Shown one piece after another: positions 15,010-26,881 of a stretch of DNA of 64,000 bases. The DNA is from Shinella lacus (GTDB lineage: Bacteria > Pseudomonadota > Alphaproteobacteria > Rhizobiales > Rhizobiaceae). The position numbers and the translations under genes were made by a program. The DNA is taken from assembly GCF_010994755.1 (NCBI RefSeq), contig NZ_WHSB02000013.1, positions 1 through 64,000 of the forward strand, read 5' to 3'. Position 1 is the stretch's first letter. Each line of letters begins with the position of its first letter. The notes under the pieces are model-generated. The model was not told where the DNA came from, did no database searches, and saw only the letters and a list, made by a program, of their open reading frames with translations.

Positions 15010-15690
15010 CTATTTGTTCCCTCTAACTTTGGGCAAATTGCTCAGCAGAGACTCGCATGCCTTGGTGATGTGAGTAACGAGCAGGTCTGTCGCGAGCGCG
15101 ACATCGCGCTGCCGGCAGGCGGCAAGAATCTGGCGGTGTTCTCGATCATCGACGCCGGTTCCGCCCGATAGTGTCAGCTGAATGCGAAGATATCGTTCGA
15201 TCCGGTCGTTCACCGATCGGATGAGGTTGAGCAGGAAGGGTTTGTCTGCGTCTTCGTAGAGACAGGAGTGAAATTGCCAGTTCAGTTCTGCCCATCGCGC
15301 GACATCTGTCTCGCGGGCGAACTCGTCGCAATAGCCTTCAGCACGCTCGAATGTGCGCTCGGTCATTCTCGGAACCGAAAGTTTCAGCGCGTTGGCTTCC
15401 AGCATGGCCCGCACTTCGAAGATCTCGGCGATTTCCGGTTCGGTGATACTCGTTACGACAGCGCCGCGGTTGCGCTGAAACTCGACAAGCCCCTCGGCTT
15501 CGAGACGCTTCAGCGCTTCGCGGACGGGAATCTTGCTGACGTCGAAGAGCTTGGCAATGTCGTCTTGGCGGATTGGCTCGCCCTCATCCAGGACGCCAGT
15601 GACAATCGCTTCGCGAATGTATTTCGCGATGATATCCGAAGTCGGGGGCGTGCTGCCGAGTGACGGCAGGTTTTGGGCTTTCAGCGGCAA
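15010..15690 (-). CDS. GntR-family transcriptional regulator with FCD ligand-binding domain
   Basis: A 226-residue regulator. Residues 15-85 form the GntR winged helix (IREAIVTGVLDEGEPIRQDD, then KIPVREALKRLEAEGLV); the rest is an FCD helical domain. A TTG start at 15690 is inferred because a stop lies two codons upstream and GGAG precedes it. Divergent from the imino-acid island. Its probable operators, ATCGTATACGAT and a CGTATATACG palindrome, lie in the shared intergenic region, and the palindrome recurs before two more transcription units. It is therefore the likely local repressor of 15824-26881. Confidence 0.9.
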   Translation of the reverse strand: MPLKAQNLPSLGSTPPTSDIIAKYIREAIVTGVLDEGEPIRQDDIAKLFDVSKIPVREALKRLEAEGLVEFQRNRGAVVTSITEPEIAEIFEVRAMLEANALKLSVPRMTERTFERAEGYCDEFARETDVARWAELNWQFHSCLYEDADKPFLLNLIRSVNDRIERYLRIQLTLSGGTGVDDREHRQILAACRQRDVALATDLLVTHITKACESLLSNLPKVRGNK

Positions 15691-15743
15691 CTTTCACTCC
15701 ATGGTCGCTCGGCGCGGTCGCGTGGGCGCTTCGAATACCGTAG

Positions 15744-15792
15744 CGTATATACGATCGGTGCTTGTCTGTCTTGACTCGTAATCGTATACGAT
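15744..15792. promoter_or_regulatory. GntR operator pair in the divergent promoter
   Basis: CGTATATACG (15744-15753) and ATCGTATACGAT (15781-15792) are both perfect palindromes. The second begins 5 bp after a TTGACT -35 hexamer at 15771-15776 and lies before TATTCT/TCTATA, so a bound repressor would block the promoter of the dimethylformamidase-like gene. The first lies nearer the regulator gene and suits autoregulation. Confidence 0.65.
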
Positions 15793-15823
15793 ATTCTATA
15801 TAAGGAAAGAAGGAGAGTTGTGC

Positions 15824-17992
15824 GTGGTGGACGGGCAAAAAACACCGGGATTGATCGGCTATGTTGCGCCCCTCAGCGCTACGCCCGGTGGCACTCTGGA
15901 ATTCAAGGTTTCCTCTCAAGGCAATCGGCCGGTTGCTGCGCGGGGACTTCGTCTCATCTGCTGCGATCCGAATCCGGCAGGACCTGGCGTCAAGACCGAG
16001 GCTGCTGACTTCGGCCTCGCGGAAAGCTATCCGGCTTCAGAGCAGCAGGCCCACCTCGGCTCCTGCGCGTTCGGCCAAATATCGGATCTCAGTGACTTTG
16101 CGTCGGCCAGGATTGGGCTGATGGTGCAGCCGACCCTATTCTCCGAACGGGCGCAGACGGTCTTCTCCTTGCAGAACGCCGGCGGGACCGCAGGCGTGGC
16201 GACGATTGTTCGCGGCGGCATGTTGTTTCTCCAGCAGTTGGGAACGGGTCGGGTATTCGATGTCGGCTTGGGCATGGCGCAGGACCGTTGGTCCCGTCTC
16301 GAGGTGACCTTTGAGTTCGATGGTTTCTCGGTGGTCGTCTCGGAAGGGAGGCCCGGGGGCGACCAAAGCAAGCGGGCCAGCTTTTCCGATGTTACGAGTG
16401 CGGTACTGGTCGGAGCCGATCACATCTGCTTTGCCGCTGTGTGGCGAGGACACCCCGAGCAGACCTTCAACGGGGCTCTCGAAAATCCGGCAGTGAGGGC
16501 AAGACGCCCGGAATCGTCCGCATGGGACGTCATCGCCGGCTGGAATTTCGGCGGAGACGCGCGCGAGGTCTGGGTGGAGGACGAGACGAGACGTGGGCGG
16601 CGGCTTTCCCTGATCAACATGCCGATGCGCGCCGTCAGGTCATCGGCATGGTCCGGACGTAACCAGGATTGGAAGCAGGCGCCGCAAGACTATGCCGCGA
16701 TCCGTTTTCATTCCGACGACCTCAGCGATTGTGCCTGGGAAACAACGATCCGCATGGACGTGCCCGAGGGCGTGCGCTCCGGTGTCTACGGGCTTGAGAT
16801 CGACAACGGCGCCAGCAAGGACACGATCCCGTTCTATGTCACCCCGGGGGAGAGGACCAAGCGGCAGCGGATCGTCTTCCTGGCGCCGACCTTCACCTAT
16901 ATGGCCTATGCGAATTTTGCGCGCGGCAATTTCGCCGGCGACCTCGCCGAGAGGGGCGCGGGCTGGAATGCCTATCCGCACAATCCCGACGAGGTCGGCG
17001 CCTACGGATATTCTACCTATAGCCGCCATCCCGACGGAACCGGGGTCACCCTGTCATCGCGCCTGCGGCCCATCATGACCATGCGTCCGAACTATCTCGT
17101 CTACTTCGATGCGAATGGATCGGGCATGCGACATTTCCCGGCAGATTCGCACCTGACGGATTGGCTTGAGGAAAAGGGTTTCTCCTTTGACGTCATAACC
17201 GATGAAGACCTTGACCGGGATGGCCTTGCCGCCTTGTCGCCCTATGACGTCGTGCTGACCGGCACGCACCCCGAATACCACACCCGACGCACCATGGAGG
17301 CGTTGATCGCCTATCGGGAAGCCGGCGGCAATCTCATGTATCTTGGGGGCAACGGCTTCTACTGGAAGATCGGCCGCAATGACGACATGCCCCATCTGAT
17401 CGAGGTCCGGCGTGCCGAGGGCGGCATGCGGGTATGGGCGAGCCAGCCGGGCGAATACTACCACCAGCTCGATGGAGACTATGGCGGCCTTTGGCGCCGC
17501 AACGGAATTCCGCCCCAGGCCGTCGCTGGCGTCGGCTTTACTGCCGAGGGCGGGTTCGAGGGCTCGTATTATGTCCGCACCGCTGCCTCCTACGCGGAGT
17601 ATCTTGCCTTTCTCTTTGACGGCATATCGTCCGATGAGCGCATCGGTGACTTCGGATTGTCCGGTGGTGGGGCGGCGGGTTTCGAGATCGACCAAGCCGC
17701 AACCGATCTCGGCACGCCGGAATTCGCGACGATCGTCGCCTTCTCCGAAGGGCATGGGCCTTCGTTCCACACGACGTTCGAGGAACTTCTTCTGCCTGGT
17801 GTGTTCGACGGCGCGCCGCGGGCGCATGGCGGCATCAGCGCCAACATCGTCTACGGAAAGTCGGATACAGGTGGGGGGCTTTTTGCCGTCGGCTCGATCA
17901 CCTTTTGCGGGAGCCTGTCGCACAACAACTACGACAACAATGTCTCGCGGCTTCTCGAAAATTGCCTGAGGAGGTTTCTCGCTGATGGTTGA
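15824..17992 (+). CDS. N,N-dimethylformamidase large-subunit-like amidohydrolase
   Basis: A 722-residue protein. The N-terminal half has concanavalin-like strands; the C-terminal half is the DMFase catalytic domain. As I recall for the Paracoccus enzyme, a mononuclear iron is held by two Tyr and one Glu with a nearby His. Here, by spacing, these correspond to Tyr362 (FTYMAYANF), Tyr399 or a neighbour (YGYSTYSRHP), and His482 and Glu484 (THPEYH). GTG at 15824 is chosen for its 8-nt distance from AAGGAG; TTG 15818 is too close. No small DMFase subunit gene is adjacent. It overlaps the next gene by 8 bp. The amide substrate is unknown; context suggests an imino-acid derivative. Confidence 0.85.
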   Translation: MVDGQKTPGLIGYVAPLSATPGGTLEFKVSSQGNRPVAARGLRLICCDPNPAGPGVKTEAADFGLAESYPASEQQAHLGSCAFGQISDLSDFASARIGLMVQPTLFSERAQTVFSLQNAGGTAGVATIVRGGMLFLQQLGTGRVFDVGLGMAQDRWSRLEVTFEFDGFSVVVSEGRPGGDQSKRASFSDVTSAVLVGADHICFAAVWRGHPEQTFNGALENPAVRARRPESSAWDVIAGWNFGGDAREVWVEDETRRGRRLSLINMPMRAVRSSAWSGRNQDWKQAPQDYAAIRFHSDDLSDCAWETTIRMDVPEGVRSGVYGLEIDNGASKDTIPFYVTPGERTKRQRIVFLAPTFTYMAYANFARGNFAGDLAERGAGWNAYPHNPDEVGAYGYSTYSRHPDGTGVTLSSRLRPIMTMRPNYLVYFDANGSGMRHFPADSHLTDWLEEKGFSFDVITDEDLDRDGLAALSPYDVVLTGTHPEYHTRRTMEALIAYREAGGNLMYLGGNGFYWKIGRNDDMPHLIEVRRAEGGMRVWASQPGEYYHQLDGDYGGLWRRNGIPPQAVAGVGFTAEGGFEGSYYVRTAASYAEYLAFLFDGISSDERIGDFGLSGGGAAGFEIDQAATDLGTPEFATIVAFSEGHGPSFHTTFEELLLPGVFDGAPRAHGGISANIVYGKSDTGGGLFAVGSITFCGSLSHNNYDNNVSRLLENCLRRFLADG

Positions 17993-19019
17993 GAGAAACA
18001 AAACTCGAGACACCCATCTTCGCTTTCACGAGCTGAAATCGCTTCTGACGACAATTTTCGTCAACAATGGCACAGCCGCGGAGACCGCCGAAATCCTCGC
18101 GGAAAACTGCGCCGGATGCGAAAGGGACGGTGCGCTCAGCCATGGCATCTTCCGCATGCCGGGCTATGTCGGTTCTCTCCGGTCGGGATGGGTGGACGGC
18201 CTGGCGGTGCCCGATGCCACGCGTCTTGGACCGTCCTTCATCCGCGTCGATGCGCGGAACGGTTTTGCCCAGCGGGCGCTTGCGGCCGCGGACCCGCTTG
18301 TCAGAAACGCTCTTCGCGAGACAGGTATAGCCATCGCCGCGATCCGCAATTCCCACCATTTCAGCGCATTGTGGCCGGACGTCGAACCTTTTGCGCTTTC
18401 GGGCTACATGGCCATCACGGCGGTGAACGGGCTTGCGAATGTGGTTCCCCATGGCGGCCGGCAGGCGATCTATGGAACCAATCCCATAGCCTTTGCCGCG
18501 CCGGTGGAAGGTGCGCCGCCGCTGGTCGTCGATCAAGCCAGCAGCGTCATGGCGAATGGCGAAGTCCGTCTGCAGGCTCTCGCCGGCAAGCCGGTTCCTG
18601 TCGGAACAGGTGTCGACCGCGACGGCAATGCCACGACGGATCCGCACGCGATCCTGGCGGGCGGGGCTTTGAACACCTTCGGCGGCTACAAGGGGTCGTC
18701 GATCGCCTTGCTCGTCGAGATTCTCGCGAGCGCCGTCACAGGGGGACAGCTCTCGTTCGAAAACGACTTTACCGGTTATCCCGGCGCGCAAACGCCGAAA
18801 GCGGGGCAGTTCCTCATCGCGATCGATCCGAACTGGGGTGGCTCTACAGGCTTTGAAACGCGCCTTGCGCATCTGTGCACCCGGCTGATCGATGCCGGCC
18901 AGGATCGGCTCCCCGGCGCGCGGCGATTTGCGAACCGTGCGGCGGCCGAGCAGTCCGGCATCCCGATCGCACAGGGCGAACTCCAGCGGCTTCGAACGCT
19001 GGCGGGGGAGGCGCCATGA
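17985..19019 (+). CDS. Ldh-family reductase, DpkA-like (delta1-pyrroline-2-carboxylate/delta1-piperideine-2-carboxylate reductase)
   Basis: A 344-residue member of the malate/L-lactate dehydrogenase (YlbC/DpkA) family. Landmarks are CERDGALSHGIFRMPGYV, with the catalytic His in SHG, then NSHHFSALWPDVEPFA, which is close to DpkA, and the GTNPIAFAAP nucleotide region. DpkA reduces delta1-piperideine- or delta1-pyrroline-2-carboxylate to L-pipecolate or L-proline with NADPH. The presence of a trans-3-hydroxyproline dehydratase two genes later, which makes delta1-pyrroline-2-carboxylate, supports this. It overlaps its neighbours at both ends, so it is translationally coupled. Confidence 0.85.
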   Translation: MVERNKTRDTHLRFHELKSLLTTIFVNNGTAAETAEILAENCAGCERDGALSHGIFRMPGYVGSLRSGWVDGLAVPDATRLGPSFIRVDARNGFAQRALAAADPLVRNALRETGIAIAAIRNSHHFSALWPDVEPFALSGYMAITAVNGLANVVPHGGRQAIYGTNPIAFAAPVEGAPPLVVDQASSVMANGEVRLQALAGKPVPVGTGVDRDGNATTDPHAILAGGALNTFGGYKGSSIALLVEILASAVTGGQLSFENDFTGYPGAQTPKAGQFLIAIDPNWGGSTGFETRLAHLCTRLIDAGQDRLPGARRFANRAAAEQSGIPIAQGELQRLRTLAGEAP

Positions 19020-19486
19020 AACCCGAAATGGATCGGCTCAAACAGGAAGGCCATGACATGACGCTCGACAGGAACAGACTTGAACTTCGGCGGGACCTCA
19101 CGCCCGAGCAGGTGGACCAACTGGTTGATCTCTTTCAGCAGGAGTGGTGGACCAAAGGCCGGGAGAAAGCGGATGTCGAACGATTGATGAAGAATGCCGG
19201 GCCGGTGTTCGCCTTTATCGATCCGTTGAACGGAGAGCTGGTCGCCTTCGCGCGCGCCATGACGGACGGCGTCTACAAGGCGATGATCTTCGACATCATC
19301 GTCAAGGATACCTGGCGGAACACCGGGCTCGGGCGCCTCCTAATGGACACCGTCATGACGGATCCCGTCCTCGCGGGCGTCAAGCATCGCGAACTCTATT
19401 GCCTCGAAGAAATGCGGCCCTTCTACGAAAAGTGGGGGTTCACGGCCAACCTGCCCGGTCTTTTCTTCATGCGCCAGTCGTCCTGA
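19016..19486 (+). CDS. GNAT-family N-acetyltransferase
   Basis: A 156-residue protein with the acetyl-CoA binding motif A (IIVKDTWRNTGLGRLLMDTV) and a closing YCLEEMRPFYEKWGF strand-helix typical of small GNATs. The start overlaps the stop of the reductase gene (ATGA). Met at 19058 would trim 14 residues. In this operon it might acetylate the amino acid substrate or a toxic analogue; the sequence does not say which. Confidence 0.85.
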   Translation: MKPEMDRLKQEGHDMTLDRNRLELRRDLTPEQVDQLVDLFQQEWWTKGREKADVERLMKNAGPVFAFIDPLNGELVAFARAMTDGVYKAMIFDIIVKDTWRNTGLGRLLMDTVMTDPVLAGVKHRELYCLEEMRPFYEKWGFTANLPGLFFMRQSS

Positions 19487-19514
19487 GGCACGGCAAGTGG
19501 GGTTTCGAGCTATC

Positions 19515-20681
19515 ATGGCTACCCATCAAACCATTCTCGACGTCGACTGTGCCGTTGTCGGCCTTGGCGTCATGGGCGCTTCAACGCTGTATTTCCTGGC
19601 CCAGTCGGGCGGGAAGGTCGTCGGTATCGACACATACAGCCCCCCGCATGGCCATGGCGCAAGCTATGGCGGCTACAAGGTGACGAGAGAAGCCGTTGCC
19701 GAAGGCCCGGCCTATCTGCATTTTGTCCGGCGCTCGAATGCGCTGCTGTGTGACCTCGAACACCGCTACGGCGTCAGCCTGATGCAGCGCACGGGAACTT
19801 TGATCATCGGGTCGGAGGCGACGAGCAGCGCCAGCGGTTTCCTGCGCGATACCATTGGGATTGCCCAGGCGAATGGCATTGTGCACGAAGTTCTACCGTC
19901 AAGGGAGTTGCGCAGACGCTATCCGCAGCTCATCGGCATAGCCGAAGAGGACACGGGTTATCTTGAGCCTGACGCCGGGTTCATCCGCCCCGAGCCGCTG
20001 TTGGATCTGCAGATCGCCCTTGCCGAACACGCGGGCGCCGAGATTTTGAGGAATACTGCCATCAAACGGATCACGTCGGTCTCCGGCGGTGTCGAGATCG
20101 AGGCCGAGGGGGTGCGGATCCGCGCCCGGCAGGTCGTCGTTGCGGCAGGGCGGTGGATGGGCGAACTCCTTGGCGACCAGCTTGCGAGCCTGCTGACTGT
20201 CGGCCGGCAGCGGACCTTTACGTTCAAAGTGCGTGATGCGGCTGCCTACCGCGCGGAGCGATTCCCGACCTTGATGTGGTTTCGCGAGCGTGTCGGTGGT
20301 GATTGCGCGACGGTTTTCCCGCTCGAAGGATCGGAGGAGGGGCTCAAGTTCTTTGTCGCGGACACGGAGGTCGATGCCCGCATCGGCCAGTCGAGCGATC
20401 GGTTTTTCGAGCAGCATGTCGCGCCGTTCTTCTCCGGGATTTCCCCGGAATTGCAGGCGATGGAGGCCTGCTACTACACGTCGACCTCCGATCATGGATT
20501 CCTGCTGGATTGGCATCCGGACATTGCGGGGCTGTTCCTCGTGTCCGCCTGTTCGGGTCATGGGTTCAAACATGCATTGGGGATTGGCGAGACGGTATCG
20601 GCCGTGCTGAGGGGAAGGCCTACTCCTGATCTTTCGGCATTCAGCCTGGAGCGATTTTTCGCCGGCCTGCCAGGCCACTGA
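19515..20681 (+). CDS. FAD-dependent oxidase of the monomeric sarcosine/N-methyltryptophan/pipecolate oxidase family
   Basis: A 388-residue flavoprotein. It opens with a DAO-type FAD motif (DCAVVGLGVMGASTLYFLA), then an HGHGASYGG segment that matches the family's GSSHG-like loop. Cys319 in EACYYTSTSD aligns with the Cys that binds FAD covalently in sarcosine oxidases, and SGHGFKHALGIGE closes the FAD site. The family oxidises N-methyl amino acids, L-pipecolate or L-proline to imines with release of hydrogen peroxide. Start 19515 is chosen; a GTG at 19497 with GAGG is an alternative. Its position in a 3-hydroxyproline operon suggests an N-methylated or cyclic imino acid substrate. Confidence 0.87.
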   Translation: MATHQTILDVDCAVVGLGVMGASTLYFLAQSGGKVVGIDTYSPPHGHGASYGGYKVTREAVAEGPAYLHFVRRSNALLCDLEHRYGVSLMQRTGTLIIGSEATSSASGFLRDTIGIAQANGIVHEVLPSRELRRRYPQLIGIAEEDTGYLEPDAGFIRPEPLLDLQIALAEHAGAEILRNTAIKRITSVSGGVEIEAEGVRIRARQVVVAAGRWMGELLGDQLASLLTVGRQRTFTFKVRDAAAYRAERFPTLMWFRERVGGDCATVFPLEGSEEGLKFFVADTEVDARIGQSSDRFFEQHVAPFFSGISPELQAMEACYYTSTSDHGFLLDWHPDIAGLFLVSACSGHGFKHALGIGETVSAVLRGRPTPDLSAFSLERFFAGLPGH

Positions 20682-20712
20682 ACATATCGTCGGTGCAAGG
20701 CGGTAAACGGCC

Positions 20713-20740
20713 TTGACACATTTGGTAGATCGTATACGAT
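20713..20740 (+). promoter_or_regulatory. Promoter with GntR operator before the 3-hydroxyproline dehydratase gene
   Basis: TTGACA (20713-20718) is followed after 16 bp by TACGAT (20735-20740), which is the right half of the palindrome ATCGTATACGAT (20729-20740). A repressor on this site would cover the -10 element. The palindrome is identical to the one at 15781-15792. Confidence 0.65.
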
Positions 20741-20795
20741 ATCTGAAATAGAAGAATGAACGACGACGAACGGGTCGTCGGTGAGAGGAAGACAC

Positions 20796-21803
20796 ATGAA
20801 ATTCGATCGCTTCCTGACCACGGTGGAGCTGCACACCTGCGGCGAGACTTTTCGCCTGGTCACCCAGGGCCTGCCCAAGATCCCCGGCAAGACGATTGTC
20901 GAGCGCATCACCTGGCTCGAACAGAACGCGGATCACTATCGACGCGCCGTGCTGCTGGAGCCCCGCGGCCACAAGGATCTCTACGGCGGCTATCTGACCG
21001 AGCCGGTTCATCCCGAGGCCGATTTCGGCGTGATCTTCCTCAACAACATGGGCTACAGCCCCCATTGCGGTCACGGTGTCATCGCTCTTGCGACCGCCGC
21101 CGTGGAGCTCGGCTGGATCGAGCGGAAAGCGCCGGAAACGAAGGTCGGCATCGATGCGCCATGCGGCTTCATCGAAGCCTATGTCCAATGGGATGGCGAG
21201 CGCACCGGCGCGGTTCGTTTCGTCAATGTGCCCTCGTTCATCTTCAGCCGCGACGTAACCGTTGAGACGCCGAGCTTCGGCGAGGTCACCGGCGATGTCG
21301 CGTATGGTGGTGCGACCTATTTCTACGTCGACGGCCGCAAGCACGGCGTCGAAATTCGCGAATTCGATGCGCAGCGCGTCATGCAGCTCGGATACGAGAT
21401 CAAGAAGGCGGTGAATGCCAAGATGCCGTTCGTGCATCCGGAAATCCCGGAATTCAACAATGTCTACGGCGTGATGGTTTATGGCGACCCCCGCCATGCG
21501 GGCTCCACACAGGCAAATTGCTGCGTCTATGCCGACCGCGCCGTCGACCGCTCGCCGACCGGTTCGGGTACGGCGGGCCGCGTTGCCCAGCTTTATCTTC
21601 GCGGCGAGATGACCGGTGCCGAGACGCTGGTCAATGAATCGATCATTGGCACGATCTTCAAAGGACGTGTGCTTTTCGAAACCAAGGTCGGCGACTTCGA
21701 CGCCGTCGTCCCGGAAGTGGAAGGCAGCGCCCATATTTGCGGCTTTGCCAACTGGGTGATCGATGAAGCCGATCCGCTCAAATACGGCTTCCTGGTGAGC
21801 TGA
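20796..21803 (+). CDS. trans-3-hydroxy-L-proline dehydratase (proline racemase superfamily)
   Basis: A 335-residue member of the proline racemase superfamily. The two catalytic positions are Cys91 (SPHCGHGVI) and Thr255 (DRSPTGSGT). In the family, the Cys/Thr pair marks trans-3-hydroxy-L-proline dehydratase, whereas Cys/Cys marks racemases and 4-hydroxyproline epimerases. The product is delta1-pyrroline-2-carboxylate. The downstream cyclodeaminase-like gene starts 2 bp later and is the expected reductase. ATG 20796 is preceded by GAGAGGAAG. Confidence 0.9.
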   Translation: MKFDRFLTTVELHTCGETFRLVTQGLPKIPGKTIVERITWLEQNADHYRRAVLLEPRGHKDLYGGYLTEPVHPEADFGVIFLNNMGYSPHCGHGVIALATAAVELGWIERKAPETKVGIDAPCGFIEAYVQWDGERTGAVRFVNVPSFIFSRDVTVETPSFGEVTGDVAYGGATYFYVDGRKHGVEIREFDAQRVMQLGYEIKKAVNAKMPFVHPEIPEFNNVYGVMVYGDPRHAGSTQANCCVYADRAVDRSPTGSGTAGRVAQLYLRGEMTGAETLVNESIIGTIFKGRVLFETKVGDFDAVVPEVEGSAHICGFANWVIDEADPLKYGFLVS

Positions 21804-21805
21804 CG

Positions 21806-22729
21806 ATGGTCCAGCACTTCGATGCATCCCTAACCGAGACATTGCTGCCCTTCGGTCTGCTCGTCAGGGAGCTGGAAAGAACCGTGGCCGCGTATGCCGA
21901 CGGAAAGATCGTCAGTCCGGAGCGGCTGGTCATTCCTCTAGCGGCCGGCGGTGTCATGCTTTCCATGCCCGCGAGCGCCGAGGACATTGCGAGCCACAAG
22001 CTCGTCAATGTCTGCCCGTCGAACCTTTCGCGTAATCTTGCGACGATCAACGGTGAGGTCGTTGCCTACGATGCCGTCACCGGCGTTTCCCTCTTCGCCC
22101 TCGACGGTCCGACCGTCACCGGACGGCGAACGGCGGCGGTGACGCTGCTGGCCATCAGCCGGCTTCGGAAAACGCCGCCGAAGACCATCGCGATCATCGG
22201 AACAGGCAAGCAGGCGTCCACACATGCACAGGCATTCGCCTCTTTCTTTCCCGGCGCAAACCTGGTCGTCGCTGGGATTTCCCGGGAAGAGGAAGACCAA
22301 TTTTGTGCAAGGCATACCGCCTGCGCCGTCAGGCCCTTTGCGGATCGCGACTGGTCTCGCGTTGACGTCGTGGTGACGCTCACCACCAGCAAGACGCCGG
22401 TCTATGCGGAAGTCGCGACGCGGGATCGGCTTGTCGTGGGGGTAGGGGCCTTTACGCCGGATGCAGCCGAGGTTGGAAGGGAAACAGTGCTGGCCAGCTC
22501 TCTGATCGTCGATGATGCCGCCGGTGCGCGGCACGAGGCGGGTGATCTCATCCAGGCCGGCGCCGATTGGTCCAAGGTGCTTTCCCTGTCTGACGTTCTG
22601 AAGGGAATGGCAGATGTCGCTGGCCCGATCTTCTTCAAGAGCGTCGGCTGTGCGGCGTGGGACCTCGCGGCATGCCGCGTGGCGCGTGCAATGATCGCTA
22701 CGGACACTTCGGACCGGCCGTCGCGGTGA
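21806..22729 (+). CDS. Ornithine cyclodeaminase/mu-crystallin family protein, probable delta1-pyrroline-2-carboxylate reductase
   Basis: A 307-residue protein with the OCD family layout: an N-terminal substrate cap, then a Rossmann fold beginning IAIIGTGKQASTHAQAF, and a VVVTLTTSKTPVY strand. In hydroxyproline catabolism, OCD homologs such as LhpI act as NAD(P)H-dependent delta1-pyrroline-2-carboxylate reductases. Direct coupling to the trans-3-hydroxyproline dehydratase makes that the best call. It may duplicate the activity of the DpkA-like enzyme at 17985. Confidence 0.85.
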   Translation: MVQHFDASLTETLLPFGLLVRELERTVAAYADGKIVSPERLVIPLAAGGVMLSMPASAEDIASHKLVNVCPSNLSRNLATINGEVVAYDAVTGVSLFALDGPTVTGRRTAAVTLLAISRLRKTPPKTIAIIGTGKQASTHAQAFASFFPGANLVVAGISREEEDQFCARHTACAVRPFADRDWSRVDVVVTLTTSKTPVYAEVATRDRLVVGVGAFTPDAAEVGRETVLASSLIVDDAAGARHEAGDLIQAGADWSKVLSLSDVLKGMADVAGPIFFKSVGCAAWDLAACRVARAMIATDTSDRPSR

Positions 22730-22801
22730 ATTGGGAAGGCCATCGGATTCGTTTCAAGGCGCCTCTTACCTCTCTCTTTGCGGGGAATAGCGGCACTTTA
22801 G

Positions 22802-22813
22802 AGCGTATACGAT
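22802..22813 (+). promoter_or_regulatory. GntR operator before the amino acid ABC transporter operon
   Basis: AGCGTATACGAT differs from the palindrome at 15781 and 20729 only at the second base. It lies 43 bp upstream of the binding-protein start codon, consistent with control by the GntR regulator at 15010. Confidence 0.6.
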
Positions 22814-22855
22814 AGCCAATATGCGAAATAATCCATAACAAGAGAGGAACTGCAA

Positions 22856-23677
22856 ATGAAGAAAATGATCCCGCTTATGGCGCTCGCCGCTGTGGCAATA
22901 TGTGGTTCGGCTGCCCAAGCAGACCAGCTTGACGACATCATCAGTGCCGGCAAGCTTCGCTGCGCCGTGCAGCTCGACTTCCCGCCGAATGGCTCGCGCG
23001 ACGCGAACAATAACCCAATCGGTTTCGACGTCGACTACTGCAACGATCTCGGCGCGGCGCTTGGCGTCGAAGTGGAAATCGTCGATACGCCGGAAAATGA
23101 CCGCATCCCGGCGATCCTGTCGGGCCGGGCCGACGTTGCGGTCGCCGTCGCCTCCGACACGCTGGAGCGTGCGAAGACCGTAGGCTTCTCGATCCCCTAT
23201 TTCGTGTTCGAGACGATTGTGCTGGCGCGCGAGGATTCGGGCATCAAGGCGCCTGACGATATCAAGGGTCATACGGTCGGCGGTCCGGCGGGCGCCTATG
23301 AAACGCTCGCGCTTGCCAAGGAGGTCGAGAAGAAGAACGATCCGGCGTCGAAAATGCTGACGTTCCAGACCCAGTCGGACACCTTCCTGGCACTCGGCCA
23401 GAAGCGCATCGACGCGACCTACACCACGTCGACGATCGCCGCAGCGATCATCGAATCCGGCAAATATCCGGGCCTCAAGGTTGTCGGCCCCGCGCCGGTC
23501 GATGCCGATTACTGCGCACTGATCGTCAAGCGACAGGAACAGGGTTGGCTCAACTACGTCAACCTGTTCCTGAACCGCCAGGTGCGTTCGGGCCGCTATG
23601 CCGAACTCTACAAGAAGTGGATCGGTGAGGATGCCGGTGCAGCCCCGGCTCTAACCGTCCCCGGCGTCTACCGATAA
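22856..23677 (+). CDS. Polar amino acid ABC transporter, periplasmic binding protein
   Basis: A 273-residue secreted protein. The signal peptide ends near AAQA (residue 22). The mature domain is a family-3 (HisJ/ArtJ) fold: IISAGKLRCAVQLDFPP, the GFDVDYCNDLGAALGV motif and the later GYETLALAKEV-like helix region. It begins the four-gene PAAT transporter operon and is separated from the first permease by a strong hairpin. Given the operator and neighbours, the ligand is probably an imino acid or derivative. Confidence 0.93.
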   Translation: MKKMIPLMALAAVAICGSAAQADQLDDIISAGKLRCAVQLDFPPNGSRDANNNPIGFDVDYCNDLGAALGVEVEIVDTPENDRIPAILSGRADVAVAVASDTLERAKTVGFSIPYFVFETIVLAREDSGIKAPDDIKGHTVGGPAGAYETLALAKEVEKKNDPASKMLTFQTQSDTFLALGQKRIDATYTTSTIAAAIIESGKYPGLKVVGPAPVDADYCALIVKRQEQGWLNYVNLFLNRQVRSGRYAELYKKWIGEDAGAAPALTVPGVYR

Positions 23678-23701
23678 CCAGCATTCGTCTCATCGCAAGA
23701 A

Positions 23702-23729
23702 GGCACCCGGTCGCAATCGATCGGGCGCC
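23702..23729 (+). other. Intercistronic hairpin after the amino acid binding-protein gene
   Basis: GGCACCCGGTCG (23702-23713) pairs with CGATCGGGCGCC (23718-23729) around the tetraloop CAAT, with one A-C mismatch and one G-T wobble. There is no U-tract. It lies 25 bp after the stop and 59 bp before the permease start. Confidence 0.6.
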
Positions 23730-23788
23730 ACCTTTGGCGGGCATCTGCGTCCGCGACAACCGAGCGCTGACAAAGAATGAGGTCGCAA

Positions 23789-24451
23789 ATGGACTATGAA
23801 TTTCAATGGAGGCCGGTCCTGCGTTCGCTTCCCGAGATGCTGTGGGGCGCTCTGCAAACGATCGAGATCGCGGGCCTCGCCATGATGCTTGGAACGGTCC
23901 TCGCCATTTTCCTGGCCCTCGCCAAACGATCCGGCAAAAAATACCTGTCCTTGCCAGCCGACATGTGGATTGAGACGGCGAGAAACACGCCCGCACTCTT
24001 CCAGATCTACATGTTGTATTTCGGCCTGGGCTCGCTCGGCTTGCAGGTCGGATCCTACACCGCGCTGTTGCTCGGCATCACGTTCAACAATGCCGGTTAT
24101 CTCGCCGAGACGTTCCGCGGTGGCTTTGCAGCCGTTCCAGAGACGCAGACACGGGCGGCACGCTCCCTTGGACTGGGGGCGGTGCAGACCCAGTGGCACA
24201 TCGTGATCCCGCAGATGCTGCGCGCGGTTTTCCACGCCATGACCAACCAGATGGTGTGGTCCGTCCTGATGAGTTCGCTCGGGGTCATTGTCGGCCTGAC
24301 CACGGACCTGACCGGCGTTACCCAGAAACTCAACGTCGTGACCTACAGGACCTTCGAGTACTTCTTCGTCGCGGCGTGCCTCTACTACCTCATTTCCAAG
24401 GCTTTCACGCTATCGGCGCGCGTCGTGGCCTGGCGCCTGTTCCGCTATTAG
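23789..24451 (+). CDS. Polar amino acid ABC transporter permease 1
   Basis: A 220-residue inner-membrane permease of the HisMQ family with an N-terminal ALQTIEIAGLAMMLGTVLA helix and the EAA-type loop (AETFRGGFAAVPETQTRAAR, then SLGLG). ATG at 23789 is preferred because GAGG lies 6 nt upstream; ATG 23777 has no such site. It forms a heterodimer with the next gene. Confidence 0.92.
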   Translation: MDYEFQWRPVLRSLPEMLWGALQTIEIAGLAMMLGTVLAIFLALAKRSGKKYLSLPADMWIETARNTPALFQIYMLYFGLGSLGLQVGSYTALLLGITFNNAGYLAETFRGGFAAVPETQTRAARSLGLGAVQTQWHIVIPQMLRAVFHAMTNQMVWSVLMSSLGVIVGLTTDLTGVTQKLNVVTYRTFEYFFVAACLYYLISKAFTLSARVVAWRLFRY

Positions 24452-24460
24452 GAGGTCGCG

Positions 24461-25114
24461 ATGTATTTCGGTGGATCATTTTCGAGGGGCGACTTCCTCT
24501 TCCTTCTGTCGGGAGCCGTGACCACGCTTTCAATCACCCTTGTCGCCGTCGTCATCGGTACCGTCCTCGGTGTCCTGTTCGGCCTGATCCGGGCCGGCGC
24601 GCCCTGGTGGATCGGCAACACGCTCGGCGCGGTCCTCGATGTCTTCCGGTCCGTGCCGCTCCTCATTCAGCTCGTACTGTTCAACTCGTTCAACAGCATG
24701 CTCAAGCTGAACTGGCCGACCTTTACTGTCGGCTGCATCTGCCTGGGGATTTACGCCTCAGCCTTTTGCACCGAGATCGTCAGAAGCGGTGTCGGCGCAG
24801 TCCCTCAGACGACACGCCGCGCTGCCCGTTCTCTCGGCCTCACCTGGCGGCAGGAATTGACGTCGATCACGCTGCCGATCGCCACCCGGATCGTCTTTCC
24901 GAGCTGGATCGGGCTGACGCTCGGCGTGATGAAGGACACGGCGCTCGTCTTGTGGATCGGCATCGTCGAACTCCTGCGCAGCTCGCAGATCGTCACGTCG
25001 CGGGTTCAGGAACCGCTGCTGATCCTCGGCATCACCGGGCTGATCTACTTCGTGATGAGCTTTCCTATCGCCAGACTCGGCAATCAACTTGAGAAGAAGT
25101 GGGGCACGCAATGA
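24461..25114 (+). CDS. Polar amino acid ABC transporter permease 2
   Basis: A 217-residue HisMQ-family permease, with TM segments starting LLSGAVTTLSITLVAVVIGT and an EAA loop CTEIVRSGVGAVPQTTRRAA followed by RSLGLT. Its stop overlaps the ATPase start (ATGA). Partner of the permease at 23789. Confidence 0.92.
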   Translation: MYFGGSFSRGDFLFLLSGAVTTLSITLVAVVIGTVLGVLFGLIRAGAPWWIGNTLGAVLDVFRSVPLLIQLVLFNSFNSMLKLNWPTFTVGCICLGIYASAFCTEIVRSGVGAVPQTTRRAARSLGLTWRQELTSITLPIATRIVFPSWIGLTLGVMKDTALVLWIGIVELLRSSQIVTSRVQEPLLILGITGLIYFVMSFPIARLGNQLEKKWGTQ

Positions 25115-25830
25115 TCGCCATCGAGAACGTTCACAAGCAATTCGGCGCGCTGCATGTGCTGAAAGGTGTCGATCTGTCGGTGCAGAAGGGCGAGGTCCTT
25201 TCGATGATCGGCGGCTCGGGATCCGGTAAATCGACTATGCTGATGTGTATCAACGGCCTCGAAGGCATCCAGCAGGGCCGCATCACGGTCGATGGCGTCG
25301 AGGTTCACGCCAAGGCCACCGACCTCAACAAACTGCGCCGCCGCATTGGAATCGTCTTCCAGCAGTGGAATGCCTTTCCGCATCTCACGGTGCTGGAGAA
25401 TGTCACGCTTGCGCCGAGAAAAGTTCTCGGCAAATCCAGGGAAGAGGCGGAGGTGATCGCGGTCGAGCAACTGTCTCATGTCGGGTTGAAGGAAAAGCTC
25501 GCCGTGTTCCCGTCCCGGCTTTCCGGCGGCCAGCAGCAACGCATGGCCATCGCAAGAGCGCTTGCGATGTCACCCGACTATATGCTGTTCGACGAGGTCA
25601 CCTCGGCGCTCGATCCGCAGCTCGTCGGCGAGGTGCTTGATACAATGCGCATGCTGTCGAAGGAGGGCATGACGATGATCGTCGTCACCCACGAAATGCG
25701 CTTTGCTCGCGAGGTGTCGGATCGCGTCGCCTTCTTCCGCGAGGGGCGCATTCACGAGATCGGCTCGCCGGATCAGATCTTCGAGAACCCCCAGCAGCCG
25801 GAAACCGCGGCTTTCCTCAAATCCATTTGA
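25111..25830 (+). CDS. Polar amino acid ABC transporter ATPase
   Basis: A 239-residue HisP/GlnQ-type ATPase: Walker A GGSGSGKST at residues 34-42, Q-loop in IVFQQWNAFPHLTV, signature LSGGQ at 137-141, Walker B YMLFDEVTSALD and the H-loop VVTHEM. It energises the two permeases upstream. The gene start overlaps the permease stop. The next gene begins 22 bp downstream, in the same direction. Confidence 0.94.
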   Translation: MIAIENVHKQFGALHVLKGVDLSVQKGEVLSMIGGSGSGKSTMLMCINGLEGIQQGRITVDGVEVHAKATDLNKLRRRIGIVFQQWNAFPHLTVLENVTLAPRKVLGKSREEAEVIAVEQLSHVGLKEKLAVFPSRLSGGQQQRMAIARALAMSPDYMLFDEVTSALDPQLVGEVLDTMRMLSKEGMTMIVVTHEMRFAREVSDRVAFFREGRIHEIGSPDQIFENPQQPETAAFLKSI

Positions 25831-25852
25831 CCTCCATCTAGGAACCTGAACA

Positions 25853-26881
25853 GTGCGCTCATCCAAGATAGTCCATGTCGTGAGCTGCCATGCCGAAGGC
25901 GAAGTCGGCGACGTCATCGTCGGCGGTGTCGCGCCGCCTCCCGGTGCGACGATCTGGGACCAGGCGCGCTGGATCGCGGAAGACGAAACACTCCGCAACT
26001 TCGTCCTCAACGAGCCACGCGGCGGCGTGTTCCGTCATGTGAACCTGCTGGTGCCGCCGAAGGACCCGAAGGCATAGATGGGCTGGATCATCATGGAGCC
26101 CGCCGATACGCCGCCCATGTCCGGCTCGAATTCGATGTGCGTGGCGACAGTCCTGCTCGACACCGGCATCATCCCCATGCAGGAGCCGGTCACACGCCTG
26201 ACCCTGGAAGCGCCTGGCGGCCTGATCGATGTCGAGGCGGAATGCCGAAACGGCAAGGCCGAGCGTATCCGCGTGCGCAACGTGCCCTCCTTCGCCGACA
26301 AGCTCGACGTGACGCTCGAAGTGGAAGGGATCGGCACGATCACCGTCGATACCGCCTATGGCGGCGACAGCTTCGTCATCGTCGATGCCGCGTCGCTCGG
26401 CTTGAGCCTCCGCCCCGAGCAGGCGCGCGACATTGCGCGCATGGGTGTGAAGATCACGGAGGCCGCCAACGAGCAGATCGGCTTCAAGCACCCGACAAAT
26501 GGCTGGAGTGGGATTTCCTTCTGCCAGATGACCGATCGCGTGTTTATGAAAGACGGCGTCCTGCACGGTAAGAACGCCGTCTCGATCCGCCCCGGCAAGG
26601 TCGATCGTTCGCCCTGTGGCACAGGCTGCTCCGCCCGCCTGGCCGTTCTCTACGCCAGGGGGTTGATGAAGGCCGGCGACGGGTTCGTCGGCATCTCGTT
26701 GCTCGACAGCGAGTTCCATTGCAGCCTCGACGAGGCGCTCGAGCTCAACGGTTTGCCAGCAATCCGGCCGACCCTTTCAGGCCGCGCCTGGATCGTCGGA
26801 ACGAAACAACTGATGGCCGATCCCACTGACCCGTTCCAGGGTGGCTATCGGGTCTCCGACACCTGGCCGATGGACAGGTGA
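25853..26881 (+). pseudogene. Proline racemase-family gene (hydroxyproline epimerase/dehydratase type) interrupted by an in-frame amber codon
   Basis: The frame from GTG 25853 (AGGAA upstream) runs 74 codons, meets TAG at 26075-26077, and continues in the same frame with no further stop to 26881. Removing the stop restores an ordinary 342-residue family protein: [10 protein letters not shown] is followed directly by [12 protein letters not shown], where relatives have a Gln. A single C-to-T change (CAG to TAG) explains it. Catalytic positions are Ser90 (MSGSNSM) and Cys255 (DRSPCGTG), the Ser/Cys pair reported for enzymes with 4-hydroxyproline epimerase and 3-hydroxyproline dehydratase activity. 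It may be a recent pseudogene, suppressed, restarted at the Met after TAG, or a sequencing error. Confidence 0.85.

Follow-up and report, generated by a model that had tools for sequence, protein, structure and literature searches.

The island and its genes

The window analysed here, a 64,000-nucleotide stretch of the 7.04-Mb genome of Shinella lacus, holds a gene island that joins a homologue of the N,N-dimethylformamidase (DMFase) large subunit to enzymes for the degradation of trans-3-hydroxy-L-proline (T3LHyp). Eleven plus-strand genes run head-to-tail from 15818 to 26881, with a divergent GntR-family regulator gene beside them (Table 1), and every gene named in a first-pass annotation of this DNA was confirmed where that annotation had placed it. 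The hydrolase gene is directly flanked by the GntR gene on one side and by the overlapping gene for a DpkA-like reductase on the other, and the ABC transporter genes together span 22856–25830. We are highly confident that the island is real, conserved and apparently co-regulated. Its composition and relatives make it fairly probable that it is a regulon for the release and degradation of amide-bound 3-hydroxyproline.

The T3LHyp-degrading part is recognizable from its protein families. Cys91 and Thr255 of the LhpH-type dehydratase form the Cys/Thr pair that we take to be the mark of T3LHyp dehydratases. The best solved structure for the DpkA-like protein is a delta1-piperideine-2-carboxylate reductase (1wtj; 382 bits, with the next structure at 152 bits). 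In the flavoprotein, Cys319 sits in the flavin-linking motif, in line with the FAD-linking cysteine described by the first-pass annotation. In the known pathway, as described in two reports (PMC4113996, PMC5144071), a dehydratase converts T3LHyp to delta1-pyrroline-2-carboxylate and reductases convert this to L-proline; the family assignments of the dehydratase and reductases agree with the earlier proposal that the last enzymes of the island would carry out this conversion. The island shares with that pathway the dehydratase family, both reductase types and the kind of transporter and regulator. It differs in its hydrolase and GNAT, neither of which is mentioned in the portions of the two reports consulted; the terms ‘formamidase’, ‘acetyltransferase’, ‘amidase’ and ‘acylase’ are absent from the main text of PMC4113996. 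The island is a variant of the T3LHyp pathway and not a new kind of system.

Table 1. Genes and sequence elements of the Shinella lacus island, with window coordinates
Feature	Coordinates	Strand	Evidence
GntR/FCD regulator, probable repressor	15010..15690	-	Pfam GntR 60.6, FCD 86.8 bits; ortholog in 17/17 linked relatives
Operator-like palindrome ATCGTATACGAT, in the gap separating GntR from the divergent hydrolase gene	15780..15793	.	Motif match
DMFase-superfamily amide hydrolase, acylase-like; start is TTG or a nearby codon	15818..17992	+	DMFA2_C domain, Pfam 297 bits against a cut-off of 27
DpkA-like (MLD2/Ldh_2) delta1-pyrroline/piperideine-2-carboxylate reductase; overlaps the hydrolase end	17985..19019	+	Ldh_2 294 bits
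GNAT N-acetyltransferase, 142 aa	19058..19486	+	Family scan
Monomeric sarcosine/N-methyltryptophan-oxidase-like (SoxA/MTOX-like) flavoprotein; accessory	about 19515..20681	+	NF008425 298 bits against a cut-off of 257
Sigma-70-like promoter TTGACA-16-TACGAT; -10 box overlaps the operator	20713..20740	+	Promoter scan
Operator-like palindrome preceding the dehydratase gene	20728..20741	.	Motif match
LhpH-type T3LHyp dehydratase	20796..21803	+	610.6 bits against a cut-off of 540; Cys91, Thr255
LhpI/OCD-type delta1-pyrroline-2-carboxylate reductase; accessory	21806..22729	+	NF045512 424 bits against a cut-off of 400
Operator-like site, 1 mismatch, preceding the transporter genes	22801..22814	.	Motif match
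Periplasmic amino-acid-binding protein SBP_bac_3	22856..23677	+	Pfam
ABC permease 1	23777..24451	+	Pfam
ABC permease 2	24461..25114	+	Named from position and translation; counterpart in 17/17 relatives
ABC ATPase, GlnQ/EhuA-like	25099..25830	+	Family scan
Second proline-racemase-family gene, NF047722-type T3LHyp dehydratase	25853..26881	+	In-frame TAG at codon 75

A core gene set recurs among close relatives

We reached 204 relatives through six short peptide patterns and retained the best 80, which with one further locus (L109) gave 81 loci for analysis. All 17 loci whose hydrolase is at least 63% identical to that of the window carry the GntR, DpkA, GNAT, LhpH, binding-protein and ATPase genes and both permease genes; the neighbourhood on which the first-pass proposal depended therefore recurs in other genomes. 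The linked loci lie in Shinella, Pararhizobium, Agrobacterium genomosp. 13, Phyllobacterium, Mesorhizobium, Ancylobacter, Rhizobium, two further Rhizobiales, Gluconacetobacter and Pseudomonas, and fewer than 17 of them are independent cases, as the two loci from R. rhizogenes are almost identical and the four from Pseudomonas are related to one another. The closest locus, in Shinella sp. CPCC 101442, has a 92% identical hydrolase; the 92% copy in a genus genome (G690) was taken as the same assembly and counted once. At one R. rhizogenes locus (L114) the LhpH match is split in two pieces (L114:7789–8850), which may reflect a broken gene or a misassembly.

Gene order is less constant than gene content. 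The genes form a single run in the Shinella group and divergent blocks in Rhizobium, Mesorhizobium and Ancylobacter, the GntR gene lies apart in Pseudomonas, and the hydrolase gene follows the ATPase gene in Gluconacetobacter; that the content is kept despite these changes argues for function. The oxidase is present in 9 of the 17 relatives (once as a short piece) and the LhpI-type reductase in 6, and on these counts we rejected both as core genes. The conserved core is the hydrolase–DpkA–GNAT set together with the dehydratase, the transporter and the GntR regulator. Two Pseudomonas loci carry an OCD gene of a different kind (25% identical), the copy at L118 scoring 415 bits against a delta1-pyrroline-2-carboxylate reductase cut-off of 322.

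At 51–57% hydrolase identity, LhpH was found in two of five loci, both from Paraburkholderia, and below 50% identity in none of 59 loci, 11 of which are shorter than 8 kb. No gene context was shared by the first 40 distant homologues (main match 35–45% identical): among these neighbourhoods a dehydratase match appeared only at L087 (weak and partial, 34% over 211 amino acids, at the edge) and a DpkA match only at L102 (37%), and the conservation expected within the family and class was not seen there. Taken alone, this distant set would have refuted the first-pass proposal by its own criterion. LhpH-type genes are rare in the background genomes, and a search of a phylum sample at E ≤ 1e-190 returned 1 of 398 genomes, the window genome itself. 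Because a close hydrolase is present in only 2 of 21 genus genomes (the window genome and G690), the island is accessory. Among plasmids, megablast of the cluster gave one full match, Pararhizobium sp. A13, among five records; a protein search matched 68 records, two of them at 60–80% identity, and one of these two is within the best 40 of the 68.

An operator-like palindrome marks the core loci

Comparison of the hydrolase upstream regions of the 18 core loci yielded one dominant motif, a palindrome. Counting TCGTATACGA sites with at most one mismatch within 320 bases 5′ of a gene, we found a site before LhpH in 20/20 cases, GntR in 19/19, the binding-protein gene in 20/21 and the hydrolase gene in 17/18, the sole hydrolase lacking one being the displaced gene of Gluconacetobacter. 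The site was absent 5′ of inner genes (GNAT 0/19, oxidase 0/11, LhpI 0/7) and preceded DpkA in only 1 of 19 cases, in A. vitis, where DpkA starts its block. In 73 control loci, for which we counted genes at least 40% identical with a match starting within the first 40 residues, the site preceded 0/27 hydrolase, 0/12 LhpH and 0/8 LhpI/OCD genes, and 1.23 Mb of control loci held 15 sites at one mismatch or fewer, two of them exact. Because the controls include both Paraburkholderia loci with LhpH beside a related hydrolase, the operator marks the core group only.

Within the window, three palindromes, absent from the first-pass annotation, lie at 15782, 20730 and 22803. There are six matches to the 13-mer (up to two mismatches, both strands) against 0.46 expected, a number reached by none of 100 shuffles, and the 12-mer TCGTATACGATA occurs exactly twice genome-wide, both times in the island. 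The promoter-like match before LhpH is weak when taken alone and no better than chance (one found against 2.5 expected in shuffles); its −10 hexamer overlaps the palindrome, which fits repression. We infer that the GntR protein binds the palindrome and represses. Because of this common operator, absent before the control genes, the hydrolase and dehydratase look like members of one regulon, which the shared operator delimits. Together with the conserved neighbourhood, the operator supports the earlier claim that the hydrolase and T3LHyp degradation belong to one pathway.

The hydrolase resembles an N-acyl amino acid acylase

The first-pass annotation had described a DMFase homologue that kept its iron and His/Glu positions and lacked a small-subunit gene, and both points held. 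The predicted iron ligands Tyr364, Tyr401 and Glu486 are present, as are Asn512, Glu623 and His484; the three ligands align with Tyr399, Tyr440 and Glu521 of DmfA2 and are retained in all 31 aligned proteins besides the DmfA2 reference. A tblastn search with the small subunit DmfA1 (E ≤ 1e-6) gave no match in the window and matched only its own locus (L194) and none of the other 35 loci, although a very divergent subunit elsewhere could escape such a search. The large subunit of DMFase alone is inactive, according to PMC7686228.

The closest solved relative of the hydrolase is not DMFase but N-acetyl-(R)-β-phenylalanine acylase (PDB 8huy, 8i59, 8i5a), to which it is similar in full-length sequence and in fold. 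The substrate of that acylase, judged by its name, is an N-acetyl β-amino acid, and the LhpH-linked clade differs from it in having fixed residues of its own, such as Arg403. This residue, two positions past the iron ligand Tyr401, is present in 18 of 18 proteins of the clade, whereas no more than 3 of 13 other proteins have Arg there; we suggest that it holds the substrate carboxylate. In a tree of 46 proteins, the 20 LhpH-linked hydrolases need one label change (support 93/86), and the core 18 are supported at 100/100. The window enzyme shares with DMFase (DmfA1A2) the fold and the Tyr/Tyr/Glu iron site, but no small-subunit gene was found for it and DmfA2 lies well outside the clade. A DMFase that has lost its small subunit was accordingly rejected, as the enzyme is acylase-like and stands apart from DmfA2 on the tree. 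The hydrolase is probably cytoplasmic.

N-acyl-prolines are tertiary amides, like N,N-dimethylformamide, and by this analogy their cleavage by the DMFase fold is plausible. With an N-acyl-amino-acid acylase as its nearest solved relative, the enzyme is likelier to act on an N-acyl- or N-aminoacyl-imino acid than on a carboxamide or N-methyl compound, and we lean towards its assignment as an N-acyl/N-aminoacyl-imino-acid hydrolase.

The window genome carries a second hydrolase of the same family (G000:C50:266874–269057; 37% identical), with no LhpH in the 20 kb around it and an ABC ATPase as the only other match to a window protein. Four DMFase-family relatives (L039, L053, L058 and L107) have one in-frame stop apiece.

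Unrelated amide hydrolases stand beside LhpH in other lineages

Of three similarly sized A. vitis plasmid records, one was examined. It carries the same regulon, complete with the operator, DpkA, GNAT, oxidase and a pair of LhpH genes, but the stretch has no DMFase-type gene. Instead, the DpkA–GNAT–oxidase run closes with an M20 amidohydrolase whose nearest relatives are YxeP and an IAA-amino-acid hydrolase homolog and which also matches an N-α-acyl-glutamine aminoacylase. Another M20 protein, dipeptidase-like, is encoded after a binding-protein gene. Besides both LhpH genes, the whole block (L196) comprises three binding-protein genes, ggt, a dipeptide ABC system and six operator-like sites. 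The neighbour of LhpH in both P. sprentiae and R. leguminosarum is an Amidohydro_1-type protein. That of P. sprentiae is nearest to prolidase 3feq/3n2c, and its nearest solved relatives are the cog1228 prolidases Sgx9260b/c, which differ from the window enzyme in belonging to Amidohydro_1, a family with no member in the window; these prolidases cleave Xaa-Pro and N-acetyl-L-proline, as stated in PMC11511702. That hydrolases of three unrelated families occur in a similar setting points to a common chemical step, in which an amide bond to the imino nitrogen is cleaved.

A proposed route for amide-bound 3-hydroxyproline

We propose that the island is a single GntR-controlled regulon for amide-bound 3-hydroxyproline. 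The ABC transporter would bring in a free or N-substituted amino acid, and the acylase-like iron enzyme, with its 2-Tyr-1-Glu site, would hydrolyse the ring-nitrogen amide of N-acyl- or N-aminoacyl-T3LHyp. LhpH would then dehydrate the released T3LHyp to delta1-pyrroline-2-carboxylate, which DpkA (with LhpI where present) would reduce to L-proline. For the GNAT, the probable role is to N-acetylate an amino or imino-acid intermediate, either to protect or to store it; the hydrolase could reverse this step. Comparison establishes the gene content, the conserved linkage, the common operator sequence, the iron-site residues and the families of the dehydratase and reductases, whereas we infer the substrate of the hydrolase, the role of the GNAT and the N-acylation of the transported molecule.

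Several observations weigh against this proposal. Gln replaces His484 in 4 of 18 hydrolases, all from Pseudomonas (L118, L119, L120 and L126), and the corresponding residue of DMFase, His519, is called essential in PMC7686228. In two loci from Paraburkholderia (L123 and L124), LhpH adjoins a 55% identical hydrolase, but both the GNAT and the operator are missing. The nearest solved relatives of the binding protein are amino-acid binders, which argues for the import of a free amino acid. Among the operator counts, those for LhpH and the binding protein are more independent and those for GntR and the hydrolase are not, because the motif was derived from sequences upstream of the hydrolase and a single site commonly serves two divergent genes. 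Both Amidohydro_1 proteins, at 257 and 243 bits, fall short of the 500-bit NCBIfam cut-off for Xaa-Pro dipeptidase. An amide hydrolase accompanies LhpH in three of the seven lineages examined that lack a DMFase-type gene (A. vitis, P. sprentiae and R. leguminosarum); in Burkholderia (four related records, one Pfam-scanned), G912, G861 and G836, LhpH and OCD genes occur with no amide hydrolase among the chosen open reading frames scanned, so the hydrolase front end is optional. One of these also has aconitase X, a family characterized as cis-3-hydroxyproline dehydratase (PMC5144071).

Other readings are less probable. We see a modest chance that the island degrades a 3-hydroxyproline-holding peptide or lipopeptide, in which case the hydrolase would be a peptidase that cleaves a late fragment. 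Peptide antibiotics are proposed as a source of free hydroxyprolines (PMC5144071), and peptidases are named once for the neighbourhoods of the proline racemase superfamily, as families adjoining its Bacilli group (PMC4113996). The dipeptide ABC system and ggt next to the A. vitis cluster and the prolidase-like hydrolases of two lineages fit such a source, but the window island has no peptide transporter, its own being of the polar amino acid type.

Slightly less probable, in our judgement, is an acetylation–deacetylation shuttle with no external N-acyl substrate, in which the GNAT would acetylate free T3LHyp after its import, or else the cyclic imine or a toxic proline analogue, and the acylase would remove the group when flux allows. 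The GNAT tracks the core loci closely, being found in 18/18 of them and at the A. vitis M20 locus (19/19 in all), and in 0/5 loci at 51–57% hydrolase identity, 0/59 below 50% and 0/40 of the first distant-homologue neighbourhoods. The likeness of the binding protein to amino-acid binders suits a shuttle, and there is a precedent in Mpr1, a GNAT that acetylates cyclic secondary amines such as cis-4-hydroxy-L-proline (PMC4964394). However, the fold of the GNAT (predicted model, pLDDT 84) is nearest to rice serotonin N-acetyltransferase, and Mpr1 is neither among its sequence matches (phmmer, E ≤ 0.1) nor among the best 50 fold matches, a result that also counts against the GNAT step of our own proposal. 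Moreover, the P. sprentiae and R. leguminosarum loci have an amide hydrolase and no GNAT match.

Improbable is the first-pass version, in which an amidated or N-methylated cyclic imino acid is the substrate, the hydrolase opening a hydroxyproline carboxamide or other exotic amide and the oxidase stripping an N-methyl group: an MTOX-like gene is present in the window and about half of the relatives, but none was found in 8 of the 17 linked loci (though Pseudomonas L118 has another DAO-type flavoprotein there), and among characterized proteins the hydrolase is nearest to an N-acyl amino acid acylase.

The proposed regulon suggests an amide-bound form in which 3-hydroxyproline may reach soil bacteria. 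It would also assign a function that can be tested to one clade of a large family of iron hydrolases labelled ‘N,N-dimethylformamidase beta subunit’ in records. The first-pass annotation knew of no described link between a DMFase-type enzyme and hydroxyproline; none appeared in the open-licence PMC literature, which is weak evidence of novelty, and nothing was found there on β-phenylalanine acylase, T3LHyp N-acetyl acylase or hydroxyproline acetyltransferase in Shinella. A bolder extension, which we offer tentatively, is a new iron-dependent amide hydrolase class for the hydroxyproline ring nitrogen, coupled to a dedicated N-acetyltransferase in an acyl-protection cycle and interchangeable over evolution with hydrolases of the M20 and prolidase types, unrelated to it, that neighbour the same dehydratase. 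If correct, it would represent a route for N-acylated 3-hydroxyproline in soil and plant-associated bacteria that we did not find described in the open-licence literature.

A second proline-racemase-family gene and a plasmid annotation

The second proline-racemase-family gene was not part of the first-pass annotation. Its TAG at codon 75 is absent from the copies in the seven relatives compared and is therefore likely to be a recent loss or an assembly error. Both catalytic motifs lie 3′ of the TAG, which is immediately followed by an ATG, and the gene is probably inactive or truncated here. The window genome (G000) has six proline-racemase-family genes, on contigs C5, C6 and C40, with two within about 6 kb of each other on C5. 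Finally, on plasmid L194 a predicted ‘AAK beta-lactamase’ (L194:6096–6359) is listed inside an IS3 transposase gene, and this resistance label is probably false.

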